From assembly GCF_011694815.1 (NCBI RefSeq), contig NZ_CP050177.1, positions 7,075,501 through 7,139,500 on the forward strand: a stretch of DNA of 64,000 nucleotides, read 5' to 3'. Shown piece after piece: positions 25,676-32,113 of the stretch (the first letter of the stretch is position 1; the number at the start of each line of letters is the position of its first letter). The stretch is from Streptomyces liangshanensis (GTDB taxonomy: Bacteria; Actinomycetota; Actinomycetes; Streptomycetales; Streptomycetaceae). The position numbers were made by a program, and so were the translations under genes. The notes beneath the pieces are model-generated. The model saw nothing but the letters and a program-made list of their open reading frames with translations. It searched no databases and was not told the DNA's origin.

Positions 25676-28066
<2,391 letters not shown>

Positions 28067-28122
28067 CGTGTTTCCCTCTCCTCGGTGCGTCGTCTGTCGC
28101 GCAGTCTGCCGTGCCGGACCGC

Positions 28123-28533
28123 TCAGCGGACCTCGTTGATCCGGATCAGGTTGCCCGAGGGATCGCGGAAGGCACAGTCCCGTACACCGTAGGGCTGGTC
28201 GGTCGGCTCCTGGACGACCTCGGCACCGGCGGCCTGGAGCTCGGCGAAGGTGGCGTCGACGTCGGCGGTGGCCAGGATGACGCGCACGTACGTGCCCTTG
28301 GCCATCATCTCGGCGATGGTGCGGCGCTCGTCGTCGGTGACGCCGGGGTCCGCGGCCGGCGGCTCCAGGACGAGGGACGTGCCGGGCTGGTCGGCGGGGC
28401 CGACGGTGATCCAGCGCATCCCGCCGTATCCGACGTCGTTGCGCACCTCGAAGCCGAGGATGTCGCGGTAGAAGGCCAGGGACGCGTCCGCGTCGTCGTG
28501 CGGGAGGAACGTGGTGTGAATCGTGAGGTCCAT
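28123..28533 (-). CDS. VOC-family (glyoxalase/bleomycin-resistance-like) protein
   Basis: A 136-residue vicinal oxygen chelate protein, made of two beta-alpha-beta-beta-beta modules (DADASLAFYRDILGFEVRND; GAEVVQEPTDQPYGVRDCAF; DPSGNLIRINE). Members bind drugs such as bleomycin or carry out metal-dependent isomerase, dioxygenase or lyase reactions. The ATG of MDLTIHTTF was chosen because TAGTGT lies exactly 7 bases before it, giving a leaderless start; a longer frame would run into the AraC gene. It stands 10 bases after the AraC gene and 56 bases before the UvrA-like gene. Confidence 0.88.
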   Translation of the reverse strand: MDLTIHTTFLPHDDADASLAFYRDILGFEVRNDVGYGGMRWITVGPADQPGTSLVLEPPAADPGVTDDERRTIAEMMAKGTYVRVILATADVDATFAELQAAGAEVVQEPTDQPYGVRDCAFRDPSGNLIRINEVR

Positions 28534-28540
28534 GCCGATC

Positions 28541-28546
28541 ACACTA
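28541..28546 (-). promoter_or_regulatory. -10 box of a leaderless VOC transcript
   Basis: TAGTGT overlaps the stop codon of the AraC gene and lies 7 bases before the VOC ATG. The VOC gene can therefore be transcribed apart from the AraC gene. Confidence 0.55.
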
Positions 28547-28984
28547 GGCGCGGCCCGATGCCCGCGCTTCTCGATTCCTGACCGGTCTGGTGACCTGCTT
28601 CGAGACACACGACGGCATCTCCGCCGCCGCGCCCGCCGTACGGCGTTGATACGTGCTGGGAGGCACGCCGACCAGCTCGGTGAAGCGGGTGCTGAACGTG
28701 CCCAGCGACGAGCACCCGACCGCGAAACACACCTCGGTGACACTGAGGTCGCCCCGCCGCAGCAGTGCCATCGCGCGCTCGATACGCCGGGTCATCAGGT
28801 ACGCGTACGGCGGCTCGCCGTACGCGGTGCGGAACGCCCGGCTCAGGTGCCCGGCCGACATGTGCGCGCCGCGGGCGAGCGCCTCGACGTTCAGCGGCTG
28901 CGCGTACTCGCGGTCGATCCGGTCGCGGACACGGCGCAGCCGCGCGAGGTCGCGCAGGTGCTGCTCGGAGGTGGATCCGGTCAT
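28544..28984 (-). CDS. AraC-family regulator (DNA-binding domain only)
   Basis: A 146-residue protein made almost wholly of the AraC double helix-turn-helix: first HTH NVEALARGAHMSAGHLSRAF, second LSVTEVCFAVGCSSLGTFST, and the closing FTELVGVPPSTYQRR. There is no ligand-binding domain, as in SoxS/MarA-like or Ada-type regulators, so it may be controlled by its level. It is transcribed toward the VOC and UvrA-like genes and is their probable activator. Confidence 0.87.
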   Translation of the reverse strand: MTGSTSEQHLRDLARLRRVRDRIDREYAQPLNVEALARGAHMSAGHLSRAFRTAYGEPPYAYLMTRRIERAMALLRRGDLSVTEVCFAVGCSSLGTFSTRFTELVGVPPSTYQRRTAGAAAEMPSCVSKQVTRPVRNREARASGRA

Positions 28985-29149
28985 CCCGAAAGCCTGCCAT
29001 GCCGGGCCCGGGGGTGGCCAGGCACAGTCCGTCGCCGTCCCCGCGCCCGCCGCCACGCCAAGGGCGTGAGCGCGTAAGGGAGATGCGGCGGGCGCACGGG
29101 TGTGCCACGCTGGCCGGTCCGCCGATCTTCCCTCCCCCTGGAGTGCCGT

Positions 29150-29785
29150 GTGACCCCCACGAGGCTGGTCCCCCTGCTGGAACAGTTCGACTTCGCCCGC
29201 GAACGCCTCGGCGGCCGCCTGGCGGGCCCCGTCATGGACAGCGGCGACGGTAGTGAGACCGCGGTCGGCCCCCTGACGGACGCGGAGTACCTCTGGGAGC
29301 CGGTGCCCGGCTGCTGGTCGGTCCGGCGGCGGACGGGCGGACCGGGCACGCGGGCCGCCTTCCTGGCCGGCGCGGGCGAGTGGGGCCGCGACGCCGCCTC
29401 GTACCCGCACCCGTGGCCCCCGCCCTTCACCACCCTCGCCTGGCGGCTGAGCCACCTCACCGAGATGCTGGCGCTCCGCGCCGACCACACGGCGGGCGGC
29501 CGCACACTGACCCGCGACGACCACCCCGTCCACGGCGACGCGGCGACCGCGGTCGCCGCCTTCGAGGAAGGCGCCGCGGCCTGGCGGACGGCGCTGGCGA
29601 CCGCGGACGACACCGCGCTGGACACCGTGGGGTACTGCACGTATCCGCACGGCAGCGACGCCGAGGAGCCGTTCGTCGACATCGTGTGGTGGGTCAACCA
29701 GGAAGTGCTGCACCACGGGGCCGAGATCGCCCTGCTCCGCGACCTGTACCGGGCGAGCGGGGGCGGCGGCGCGGGCGCCGCATGA
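29150..29785 (+). CDS. DinB/YfiT-like four-helix protein
   Basis: A 211-residue protein of the DinB/MDMPI superfamily, four-helix bundles that use three His to hold a metal and act as thiol-dependent (often mycothiol-dependent) transferases. Visible His residues at bundle-like spacing are in LSHLTEML and NQEVLHHGAEIALLRDL; the N-terminal LLEQFDFARERL begins the first helix. The GTG start follows GGAG by 6 bases. It is divergent from the AraC gene. The substrate is unknown; detoxification would fit the neighbouring VOC and UvrA-like genes. Confidence 0.8.
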   Translation: MTPTRLVPLLEQFDFARERLGGRLAGPVMDSGDGSETAVGPLTDAEYLWEPVPGCWSVRRRTGGPGTRAAFLAGAGEWGRDAASYPHPWPPPFTTLAWRLSHLTEMLALRADHTAGGRTLTRDDHPVHGDAATAVAAFEEGAAAWRTALATADDTALDTVGYCTYPHGSDAEEPFVDIVWWVNQEVLHHGAEIALLRDLYRASGGGGAGAA

Positions 29786-29790
29786 GCGAA

Positions 29791-29818
29791 GCCCCGGATC
29801 CGCTGCGGGATCCGGGGC
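29791..29818. terminator. Hairpin terminator shared by dinB-like gene and tRNA-like gene
   Basis: GCCCCGGATCC and its complement (11 bases) flank a 6-base loop. It lies just after the DinB-like stop, and 10 bases beyond the 3' end of the tRNA-like gene on the other strand, where it is followed by TTCG. It can serve both transcripts. Confidence 0.8.
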
Positions 29819-29827
29819 CTCGTACGG

Positions 29828-29897
29828 AGCGCTGGGCAGGCCTTGCACCTGCATTTCCCCACGGGAAGCGGGGCGTCTTTCCTTGGACCACCAACGC
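29828..29897 (-). tRNA. Atypical glycine tRNA-like gene, anticodon UCC, with a GUGCAA T loop
   Basis: The minus strand folds into a complete cloverleaf of 69 nucleotides plus a discriminator U. The acceptor stem is GCGTTGG/CCAGCGC (7 pairs, one G-U), the D stem GTC/GAC with GG in the loop, the anticodon stem CCCCG/TGGGG (5 pairs, one G-U) with loop CTTCCCG, the variable loop AAAT, and the T stem GCAGG/CCTGC (5 pairs). With U33 in place the anticodon is UCC (glycine). G1:C72, C2:G71, G3:C70, C35, C36 and U73 match bacterial glycine identity. Departures from a ribosomal tRNA are the T loop TGCAAGG (TTCRA expected) and C instead of a purine at 37. CCA is not encoded. A promoter-like box lies upstream and a hairpin downstream. 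Confidence 0.75.
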
Positions 29898-29937
29898 CGG
29901 GCCCGCATCCGGTGTTCCGGTCGCAAGCTCAAGATCA

Positions 29938-29967
29938 ACTGTAGCGCACCTCGCGCGGATCCGGAAA
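29938..29967 (-). promoter_or_regulatory. Candidate promoter for the tRNA-like gene
   Basis: On the minus strand TACAGT (29938-29943) is a good -10 box; TTTCCG 18 bases upstream is a poor -35. A start near 29931 would leave a leader of about 34 bases before the cloverleaf. It lies in the gap after the zwf stop, so the tRNA-like RNA need not depend on zwf transcription. Confidence 0.45.
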
Positions 29968-29986
29968 CCCGCCGACGGGTCGTGTC

Positions 29987-31429
29987 TCAGCGGGCCGGAC
30001 CCGTCCAGGGCTCCCGCCACGACGGATGGCCGCGCACGAGCCTCTTCGCCTCCTCCGGGCCCCACGAACCGGGCTGGTACGGGTGGACCTCGGGCGGGTT
30101 GTCGAGCAGCGGCTGCACGATGCGCCACGACTCCTCGACGCTGTCCTCGCGCGTGAACAGCCGGTGATCGCCCGTCAGGGCGCTGTGCAGCAGCCGCTCG
30201 TACGGCTCGAAGGGCTCACCGACGTCCGGGGCGAACGAGGCGTTGAGGTTGATCGGCCGCCAGGCCTCGTCGCCGCCCTGCCCGACGAGCTGGACCCGCA
30301 GCCCGGGGTCCGGGTCGATGCGCAGCACGATCTGGTTCTGCTCCGCCTGCGTCGGCGTGGGCAGACAGGCCAGCCGCGGCGCGCGGCGCAGCAGGAGCCG
30401 TACCTCCGTCGCCCGCAGCGGCAGCTTCTTGCCCGTGCGCAGGAAGAACGGCACGTCGGCCCACCGCCAGTTCTCCACCTCCAGCCGCAGCGCGGTGAAG
30501 GTCTCGGTGGTGGACCCGGCCGCCACCCCCGGAACGTCCGCGTACCCCGCGTACTGGCCCCGGACGCAGTGCTCCGGATCAGCCGCGCGGACGGCGCCGA
30601 GGATCTCCGCCTTCTTGTCGCGCACGCTGTCCGCGTCGGCCCGGGTCGGCGGGTCCATCGTGACCAGCGCGAGCACCTGGAGCAGGTGGTTCTGGACGAC
30701 GTCGCGGAGCGCGCCCACCGAGTCGTAGAACTTCCCCCGGTCCTCGACGCCGAAGTCCTCCGCCATGGTGATCTGGACGGCCGAGACGCTGTTGCGGTCC
30801 CACAGGCCGGCCAGCGCCGGGTTGGCGAACCGCAGGTACTCCAGCTCGATGACCGGTTCCTTGCCGAGGAAGTGGTCGACCCGCAGCAACTGGCTCTCGT
30901 CCAGCACCGCGCGCAGCCGCGCGTTGAGCTCGCGCGCGGACTCCAGGTCGTTCCCGAAGGGCTTCTCCACCGCGACACACGCGGTCCCCAGGATGTCCGC
31001 CTTGCCGAGCCGTTCGACGATCGGCGCGAACAGCGCGGGGGGCATCTCCAGGTAGTACAGGGGGCGGTGTCCCGGCCCGATCTCCCGCGCCAGCTGTGCG
31101 TAGAGCGCGTCGTCCAGGACGTCGCCGTGCACATACGTCAGCCGCCCGGCGAACCGCTGGAAGACCGCGTCCTCCACCTGCTCCCCGGTGGCGGCGACGG
31201 TCTCGCGCGCGTACGCCACGAGCTGCGCGGTGGACATGTCCGTGGACGCCACCCCGATGACGCGGCAGTCGAGGAGGCCGCGCCGCTCCAGGCGGTAGAG
31301 GGAGCGGAGCGTCATCTTGCGGCCGAGATCCCCGGTGATGCCGAAGACGACCAGGGTGTCCGACGCGCGGGTGCTGTCGGGCACACTGGTGCTGTCGGTC
31401 GCCGACCGTTCGCCGTTGGTCTTCGCCAT
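29987..31429 (-). CDS. zwf: Glucose-6-phosphate 1-dehydrogenase
   Basis: A 480-residue cytoplasmic enzyme that oxidises glucose 6-phosphate to 6-phosphogluconolactone with NADP+ (or NAD+), the entry to the pentose phosphate pathway. The nucleotide-binding GITGDLG (30-36), EKPFGND (155-161) and active-site RVDHFLGKE (183-191, with the catalytic His in DHF) are all present, and the length is normal. GGAAGG lies 6 bases before ATG; a longer open frame upstream overlaps the divergent GNAT gene and was rejected. It stands alone, without tal, tkt or opcA, so it may be a second copy in the genome. Confidence 0.95.
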   Translation of the reverse strand: MAKTNGERSATDSTSVPDSTRASDTLVVFGITGDLGRKMTLRSLYRLERRGLLDCRVIGVASTDMSTAQLVAYARETVAATGEQVEDAVFQRFAGRLTYVHGDVLDDALYAQLAREIGPGHRPLYYLEMPPALFAPIVERLGKADILGTACVAVEKPFGNDLESARELNARLRAVLDESQLLRVDHFLGKEPVIELEYLRFANPALAGLWDRNSVSAVQITMAEDFGVEDRGKFYDSVGALRDVVQNHLLQVLALVTMDPPTRADADSVRDKKAEILGAVRAADPEHCVRGQYAGYADVPGVAAGSTTETFTALRLEVENWRWADVPFFLRTGKKLPLRATEVRLLLRRAPRLACLPTPTQAEQNQIVLRIDPDPGLRVQLVGQGGDEAWRPINLNASFAPDVGEPFEPYERLLHSALTGDHRLFTREDSVEESWRIVQPLLDNPPEVHPYQPGSWGPEEAKRLVRGHPSWREPWTGPAR

Positions 31430-31554
31430 GTCGAACCTTCCCTCACCGACAACAGGGCAGGGTGCGGGTGGGCGTGTCGCTCGACTCACTGTAGGTCCGT
31501 TCCGGGGCGGGCGCCCGTTCGTGGGGCGGCTCCGGGTCCGCGAATGTATAGAAG

Positions 31555-31560
31555 TACAAT
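31555..31560 (+). promoter_or_regulatory. -10 box of a leaderless GNAT transcript
   Basis: TACAAT lies 7 bases before the chosen ATG of the acetyltransferase gene, so the message should begin at the start codon. An ATG upstream, at 31544, would fall before this start and is unlikely to be used. Confidence 0.6.
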
Positions 31561-31567
31561 CATCTGC

Positions 31568-32113
31568 ATGGATATGCGTACTGTTTCGTTCGGTCACCCC
31601 GACGCCGTCAAGCTCAACGATCGTGTCCAGCTCGAATACGCCGAGCGGTACGGCGACGAGGGCGACGTCACCCCGCTCGCGCCGGACATGTTCGACCCGC
31701 CCCAGGGCCGCTACCTGATCGTGTACGACGAGGAGGGCACCCCGGTCGCCACCGGCGGCTGGCGCAGCCAGGACAAGAACGAGGACGGCTACTCCGACGG
31801 TGACGCGGAGATCAAGCGCATGTACGTGACCCCGGAGGTGCGCGGGCGCGGCCTGGCCCGGCGGGTGCTGGCCGCCCTGGAGGAGGACGCGCGGGCCGCC
31901 GGCCGTACCCGGATGGTGCTGGAGACCGGCACCAAGCAGCCGGAGGCACTGGCCCTGTACGCGTCCAGCGGCTACGAACCCTGCGTCAAGTTCGGCCACT
32001 ACCGCTTCCACGAACTGAGCCTCTGCTACGCGAAGCCCCTGACGGCCCCCGCGCCCGCCACCACCGCCGGACACGGGACGGCCCACGACACCGGGGCCCC
32101 GGCGGCCGGCTGA
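31568..32113 (+). CDS. GNAT-family N-acetyltransferase
   Basis: A 181-residue acetyltransferase of the GNAT fold. The acetyl-CoA-binding motif A is clear: IKRMYVTPEVRGRGLARRVL (V-x-RGRGLA). The C-terminal part (LALYASSGYEPC) forms the substrate pocket edge. The family acetylates amines on antibiotics, proteins or metabolites; the substrate is not evident. The last ~20 residues are Pro/Ala/Thr-rich. It is divergent from zwf and convergent with the SpoIIE-type gene. Confidence 0.9.
   Translation: MDMRTVSFGHPDAVKLNDRVQLEYAERYGDEGDVTPLAPDMFDPPQGRYLIVYDEEGTPVATGGWRSQDKNEDGYSDGDAEIKRMYVTPEVRGRGLARRVLAALEEDARAAGRTRMVLETGTKQPEALALYASSGYEPCVKFGHYRFHELSLCYAKPLTAPAPATTAGHGTAHDTGAPAAG

Follow-up and report, generated by a model that had tools for sequence, protein, structure and literature searches.

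The gene at positions 29,828-29,897 (minus strand) of the window, by which we mean the whole stretch of 64,000 nucleotides of Streptomyces liangshanensis DNA that was analysed, is a stand-alone glycine tRNA gene that carries a promoter-like box, a leader and a terminator-like hairpin of its own. The family of which it is a member is dispersed and conserved, and is present in about half of the Streptomyces genomes examined. We propose that the family RNA is probably a glycine tRNA gone from translation, and a candidate glycine donor to a non-ribosomal aminoacyl-transferase in trans, as judged from the conserved and altered positions of the sequence.

The gene and its surroundings

The tRNA-Gly-like and apparently non-decoding gene, which comprises tRNA positions 1-73, was delimited by ARAGORN, folding, covariation and DNA search. 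Read from the sequence, it consists of an acceptor stem GCGTTGG/CCAGCGC, a D arm GTC/GAC, an anticodon stem CCCCG/TGGGG closing the loop CTTCCCG (anticodon UCC), a T stem GCAGG/CCTGC with the T loop TGCAAGG, and U73. The cloverleaf with four stems and only two G-U pairs described in an earlier, sequence-only reading is borne out, the G-U pairs being located at 4-69 and 31-39. U73 is followed by CC (29,826-29,827, minus strand) and the full CCA is not encoded, the next base being G; position 75 is variable among the family copies. ARAGORN reports a tRNA-Gly(tcc) at 29,826-29,897 on the minus strand as the sole tRNA found in the window. The 70-mer also takes the cloverleaf shape as its structure of lowest energy (-32.9 kcal/mol, z -2.0), and 10 of 200 shuffled sequences fold equally well. 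In the fold of the window copy C32 and G38 are able to pair, which would leave five unpaired bases in the folded anticodon loop.

The Rfam tRNA model (RF00005) did not report the gene within positions 28,000-32,000 at E ≤ 10, and neither of the two family copies of this genome was among the 69 matches that it gave genome-wide at E ≤ 1. ARAGORN classifies 218 of 255 distinct family copies as tRNA-Gly and one as tRNA-Leu, missing the other 36, so that, as judged by this program, the copies depart moderately from a normal tRNA; the second copy in the S. liangshanensis genome receives no tRNA call from it.

Upstream of the tRNA, at a distance of 40 nt, a -10-like box TACAGT is found (29,938-29,943, minus strand), which is followed by TGATCTTG; a transcript starting as this box predicts would carry a leader with a hairpin (29,898-29,931, minus strand), as given by the fold. 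A terminator-like hairpin with a stem of 12 bp and without a U tract is located 6 nt behind CC (29,790-29,819, minus strand; sequence and fold), and also stands directly behind the convergent DinB_2 superfamily gene (29,102-29,785, plus strand; Pfam DinB_2, ORF list). The latter and the upstream neighbour zwf, encoding glucose-6-phosphate dehydrogenase (29,990-31,429, minus strand, the stretch as used in the family search; Pfam G6PD_N/G6PD_C), are given as context only. Of 253 family copies 217 have a -10-like box upstream, as compared with 15 of 759 stretches taken at random from the same loci, and a downstream hairpin (score of at least 10) is present in 249 of the 253 copies against 30 of the 759 stretches, with 243 distinct hairpin sequences behind the copies. 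This count took 253 of the 255 distinct copies, the rest being left out for an incomplete flank or N.

Distribution and conservation of the family

A DNA search matched the family in 51 of 101 Streptomyces genomes, at up to six places per genome, and gave no match in the other 50. Full-length matches outside the S. liangshanensis genome are 74-97% identical, and the second copy within it is 96% identical and lies 6.7 Mb away. A covariance model, R1, was built from the family and used at E ≤ 0.01 for the Streptomyces and order searches and at E ≤ 0.001 for the class. R1 finds matches in 62 of the same 101 genomes, 11 more than the DNA search, and in 111 of the 197 genomes of the order sample, a few of these being probably of the core or phage type (both described below) by score; as the 11 added genomes have nine matches at core-type places, one of the phage type (G025) and one weak match (G019), the figure of 62/101, and probably that of 111/197, overstates the family. 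In the class sample of 394 genomes R1 matches 40, comprising 21 Streptomyces (one of the core type) and 19 others, the latter scoring at most 48.9 bits, where intact members of the family in the 101-genome set reach 66.7-105.7 bits. The family was further found in one named Actinacidiphila sequence and in two Streptantibioticus plasmid records. On plasmids there are 134 family places in 68 records, including S. clavuligerus plasmids (H30-H40), with up to eight per record on large Streptomyces plasmids and four on pCLA1 of S. clavuligerus ATCC 27064; the PLSDB tables hold no RNA genes, and the entry "none" under plasmid matches is therefore uninformative on annotation. No family member was found in 50,697 phage records. 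Judged by titles and the beginnings of abstracts, none of the open-licence PMC papers that our searches listed names a family of this kind in Streptomyces.

Some family copies lie near chromosome ends. With wide flanks, 80 of the DNA-search matches listed were fetched from 47 of the 51 carrier genomes, and their flanking genes fall into about 65 site groups, as far as crude gene calls define them. The largest group is common to six genomes, which indicates that some copies were inherited vertically; this site (L042, L048, L087, L090, L093 and L096) is near a gene that we take to be tsaD-like. Two decayed copies without an intact acceptor stem were seen (L422 in G024:C53 and L428 in G081:C700), and another copy, L412 (G110:C41:16947-17019), has an extended D loop and, on inspection by eye, lacks a terminator hairpin immediately behind it.

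Conservation and compensatory changes in related genomes, which the sequence-only reading had set as a check, were both found, the former in 51 of 101 genomes and the latter in covarying stems. In 37 distinct sequences 99.5% of 740 stem cells are paired (shuffled mean 90.9%) and seven pairs have changed on both sides (shuffled mean 3.7, with seven reached by 2 of 500 shuffles), in an alignment that was fitted to the model and hence leans towards structure; with the stems slid along the alignment only 37-48% are paired. The two-sided changes occur in the acceptor, anticodon and T stems, the D stem varying on one side only, and the pair 51-63 is broken in three of the 37 rows. For 227 same-strand locus pairs aligning over the element, the median alignment begins at the first base of the element and stops at the last, and the flanks diverge between loci while the tRNA part does not. 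The pattern of these changes indicates that the family is under selection as RNA.

The glycine identity set that had been read from the window copy, with the pairs 1-72, 2-71 and 3-70 together with C35, C36 and U73, is kept across the family. G1-C72, C2-G71 and G3-C70 are present in 37/37 distinct rows, C35-C36 in 255/255 distinct copies and U73 in 72/72 copies; G10 is found in all rows and C50-G64 in 32 of the 37, the other five having U-G, and the Thermus element U16 is not evident. Bacterial glycine identity is given, in the part of PMC9976931 drawn on here, as G1-C72, C2-G71, C35, C36 and U73, to which Thermus adds G10, U16 and C50-G64. In an extract of PMC6097841, U73 is described as guarding glycyl-tRNA from the editing enzyme DTD, a role noted by its authors for tRNAs which do not bind EF-Tu.

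The anticodon loop takes seven forms in the 255 distinct copies, four of them with six bases (CTTCCTG 198, CTTCCCG 32, CAGCCG 9, CTCCAA 7, CAACCG 5, CTGCCG 3 and CCTCCTG 1). This set was collected with a regular expression requiring a TGC T loop and CGCT on the 3' side, and many copies came from a pattern scan demanding CTTCCYG, among the matches listed (80 of 120 stretches), so that the loop frequencies lean to the main type. U33 and a purine at position 37 are near-universal in decoding tRNAs. The C at 37 already pointed out in the window copy is confirmed by its loop, and all of the 231 copies with a loop of seven bases have C32-G38 and a pyrimidine at 37; the remaining 24 of the 255 have six-base loops. 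Position 34 is U, G or A, the six-base loops being numbered by a scheme of our own. The unusual G55 is likewise a family trait, since alignment columns 50-53 (G53-T54-G55-C56) read G, T, G, C in 72/72 copies. A51-U63 is present in 34 of 37 rows and 49-65 is G-C in 36 of 37. G18-G19 is kept in 72/72 copies, and two further variants (L391 and L392) are one base shorter and without GG.

A normal tRNA-Gly(UCC), which the sequence-only reading had proposed to look for, exists elsewhere in the genome, ARAGORN finding tRNA-Gly with UCC, GCC (two) and CCC among the 46 loci scanned, and thus the genome seems not to need the family RNA for translation. The family resembles these canonical tRNAs in the acceptor identity bases, C35-C36 and U73, but is only 42-51% identical to them, and the canonical tRNAs have a standard T loop, A37 and a loop with U33. 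The conserved positions argue that selection keeps the contacts with the glycyl-tRNA synthetase and has dropped decoding in the family.

In the non-proteinogenic tRNA-Gly of S. aureus (Giannouli et al. 2009), as summarised in the portions of PMC4052509 and PMC8007984 considered here, G18-G19 is replaced by UU or CU (PMC4052509), the T stem has A49-U65 and A51-U63, a set for weak EF-Tu binding (PMC4052509), and the T loop varies. The family is like these RNAs in being a tRNA-Gly(UCC) beside canonical ones, with an odd T loop, A51-U63 and glycine identity kept. The letters of the staphylococcal variant T loop are GUGC. Unlike the S. aureus RNAs, the family keeps G18-G19 and has G-C rather than A-U at 49-65, and for this reason we do not place it within the staphylococcal type. 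It differs also in that its anticodon loop is itself altered (C32-G38, Y37 and six-base loops), and in being dispersed over about half of the genomes with a promoter-like box and terminator of its own.

Two related types of tRNA-Gly

Through weak R1 matches we found another atypical tRNA-Gly(UCC), here called the core type, whose T stem has a bulged U and whose T loop reads TGCAAT; it adjoins tRNA-Gly(GCC) in the loci looked at. With a model, R2, made of five core-type sequences, the copy of the S. liangshanensis genome was located at C1:4192896-4192968 on the minus strand (L529). R2 gives a match of at least 97 bits in 101/101 Streptomyces genomes and, in the class sample, of at least 96.9 bits in 40/40 Streptomyces genomes, the best score elsewhere being 73.6 bits. 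The core type is like the family in G55 of the T loop, the glycine acceptor and C32-G38, the last in the five model sequences and not in the S. liangshanensis copy; it differs from the family in its seven-base loop with A37, its bulged U, its place beside tRNA-Gly(GCC) and its presence in every genome. Five family members are 54-68% identical to the core type, 49-75% to five phage types and 42-51% to canonical tRNA-Gly. A tree of 16 short sequences, with uneven support, groups the core type with canonical tRNA-Gly, between them and the rest. Further core-type loci are L381, L415, L423, L429 and L430, and three core-type matches lie close together in each of G018, G035, G051 and G060.

Other R1 matches in Streptomyces genomes, with 53.7-64.1 bits, stand directly upstream of a gene with PF22555 (DAM-like) and PF22559 (GNAT). 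PF22559 occurs in 6 of the 101 Streptomyces genomes and a tRNA-like gene lies upstream in four of the six; in the other two, G006 and G030, no such gene is found within 1.5 kb by either ARAGORN or R1. In 20 of 21 IMG/VR contigs that encode the DAM-like/GNAT protein, R1 gives an upstream match (40.8-67.5 bits), within about 210 nt in 18 and farther in L446 and L460, contig L459 having no R1 match upstream of the gene; ARAGORN calls a tRNA-Gly in 16 of the 21. Five of 13 phage records and four of ten plasmid records with the gene were looked at. Two mycobacteriophages have an annotated tRNA-Gly(tcc) upstream, and three Gordonia phages (L464, L531 and L532) show by eye, about 110-190 nt upstream, an unannotated glycine-type cloverleaf-like sequence that is missed by ARAGORN and has a T loop without TTC, the minimum-energy fold of one of them not being a clean cloverleaf. 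On two of the plasmids a tRNA-Gly immediately precedes the gene, and on two others, from Peribacillus, it lies 2.3-2.5 kb upstream. A ParB-like gene is located behind the DAM-like/GNAT gene in seven of nine annotated records looked at. The loci of this association are L403, L410, L411, L437-L440, L443-L463, L464-L468 and L530-L533.

The phage type is 59-75% identical to the five family members (49-59% for the mycobacteriophage sequence) and resembles the family in having, in several copies, C32-G38 and a TGC T loop; it differs in its linkage in cis to one protein gene, in the TTC kept by many copies and in a mostly purine position 37. No relative of the DAM-like/GNAT protein was found in the flanking DNA fetched for the 80 family copies (up to 9.5 kb on either side), and the S. 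liangshanensis genome gives no PF22559 match. The linkage in phages suggests that the DAM-like/GNAT gene encodes a glycyl-tRNA-using transferase. According to the part of PMC7824862 consulted, Mom-type GNAT enzymes acylate adenine in DNA. The DAM-like/GNAT protein, for which the model has low confidence, may thus modify DNA with the help of glycyl-tRNA.

Possible consumers of the glycyl-tRNA

A tRNA shaped for loading with glycine and not for reading by the ribosome, with copies in about half of the species, probably hands its glycine to another enzyme. In the mechanism that we favour, the RNA would be charged by glycyl-tRNA synthetase, while its T arm (G55 and A51-U63) and altered anticodon loop would prevent its use by EF-Tu and the ribosome; once charged, it would serve a non-ribosomal aminoacyl-transferase in trans. 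The latter would most likely have the GNAT fold, which the Fem ligases adopt and which is also present as a domain in the phage protein that accompanies the relatives of the family. No protein family recurs beside the copies in more than 7 of 47 genomes, so that the consumer must act in trans. Other users of glycyl-tRNA in the making of Streptomyces products, such as DhpK and Orf11, are mentioned in the section of a review that we used (PMC12945691). Points against this explanation are the patchy presence of the family, the G18-G19 that most of its copies retain in contrast to the RNAs of staphylococci, the U16 element not being evident, and the tRNA-Gly calls that ARAGORN still makes for most copies.

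The sequence-only reading had seen in the gene a glycine-identity tRNA gone from decoding, which agrees with the present results, and possibly a donor reserved for the Fem ligase of peptidoglycan, which they do not support, as the RNA is in 51 of 101 genomes and FemAB genes are in 101/101. The alternative that it named, another tRNA-dependent ligase, may still apply. If the RNA served FemX, the ligase that adds the one glycine bridging Streptomyces peptidoglycan, this would be a particular form of the mechanism above, and it seems to us rather unlikely. Fem ligases do use glycyl-tRNA, and staphylococci use variant tRNA-Gly for their bridge (PMC4052509 and PMC8007984, in the parts used here). 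FemAB genes are present in every genome, and raw FemAB matches are slightly more numerous in carriers than in non-carriers (means of 4.08 and 3.30, p 0.05); however, the association with RNA presence is gone after correction for genome size (p 0.87, 101 genomes), the RNA is found in only about half of the genomes, and another atypical tRNA-Gly is found in all of them. A relative of the two FemAB proteins of the S. liangshanensis genome lies near one of the 80 family copies. Since the core RNA is universal, as are the FemAB genes, it would be a better candidate donor of cell-wall glycine for the peptidoglycan bridge than the dispersed family, for which this role is less likely.

Another reading, which we regard as similarly doubtful, is that the RNA donates no glycine but acts as a decoy absorbing tRNA-Gly-directed enzymes (toxins, nucleases, acetyl- or pyrophosphotransferases), or as a sensor reporting the charging of glycine tRNA. 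Copies are often several per genome, some near chromosome ends and some on plasmids, and known toxins select tRNA-Gly by acceptor features (PMC11559606) and TacT by U73/G71 (PMC9976931). Nevertheless, a decoy for the acceptor end needs no C35-C36, yet both are kept while neighbouring loop positions change, and the lack of a neighbour recurring beyond 7 of 47 genomes extends to families of any kind. It is very improbable that the copies are attachment-site remnants or selfish dispersed DNA without RNA function: the roughly 65 site groups among 80 loci, the plasmid copies and the two decayed copies would fit with this, but the compensatory stem changes, the -10-like boxes and hairpins of most copies with their many distinct hairpin sequences, and the flanks diverging around a constant tRNA part do not. 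An ordinary decoding tRNA-Gly(UCC), despite the anticodon UCC of the commonest types, the glycine identity kept and the acceptance of most copies by ARAGORN, is hardly conceivable in view of the pyrimidine 37 and C32-G38 in every seven-base loop, the six-base loops and other bases at 34 in other copies, G55, the silence of the Rfam tRNA model and the presence of a canonical UCC tRNA.

Returning to a glycine tRNA gone from translation, we tentatively extend the proposal to a wider scheme, in which Streptomyces and their phages might run a parallel, non-translation pool of glycyl-tRNA, made up of the core type, the dispersed family and the phage copies, and feeding GNAT-fold transferases. The phage protein would then put glycine on adenine in DNA, and the dispersed family would feed a similar, unrecognised host enzyme.

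Glycine tRNAs for the cell wall that are kept out of translation were known before from staphylococci. In Streptomyces, a genus of great importance for antibiotics, such a tRNA takes the form of a dispersed family, often with several copies per genome, and in S. liangshanensis the Rfam tRNA model overlooks it. Its natural variants could show which positions of a tRNA are needed for charging and which for the ribosome, and the family points to a further consumer of glycyl-tRNA. Because its phage relative is linked in cis to a DNA-methylase-like/GNAT protein, a tRNA-dependent modification of DNA becomes an idea that can be tested directly.
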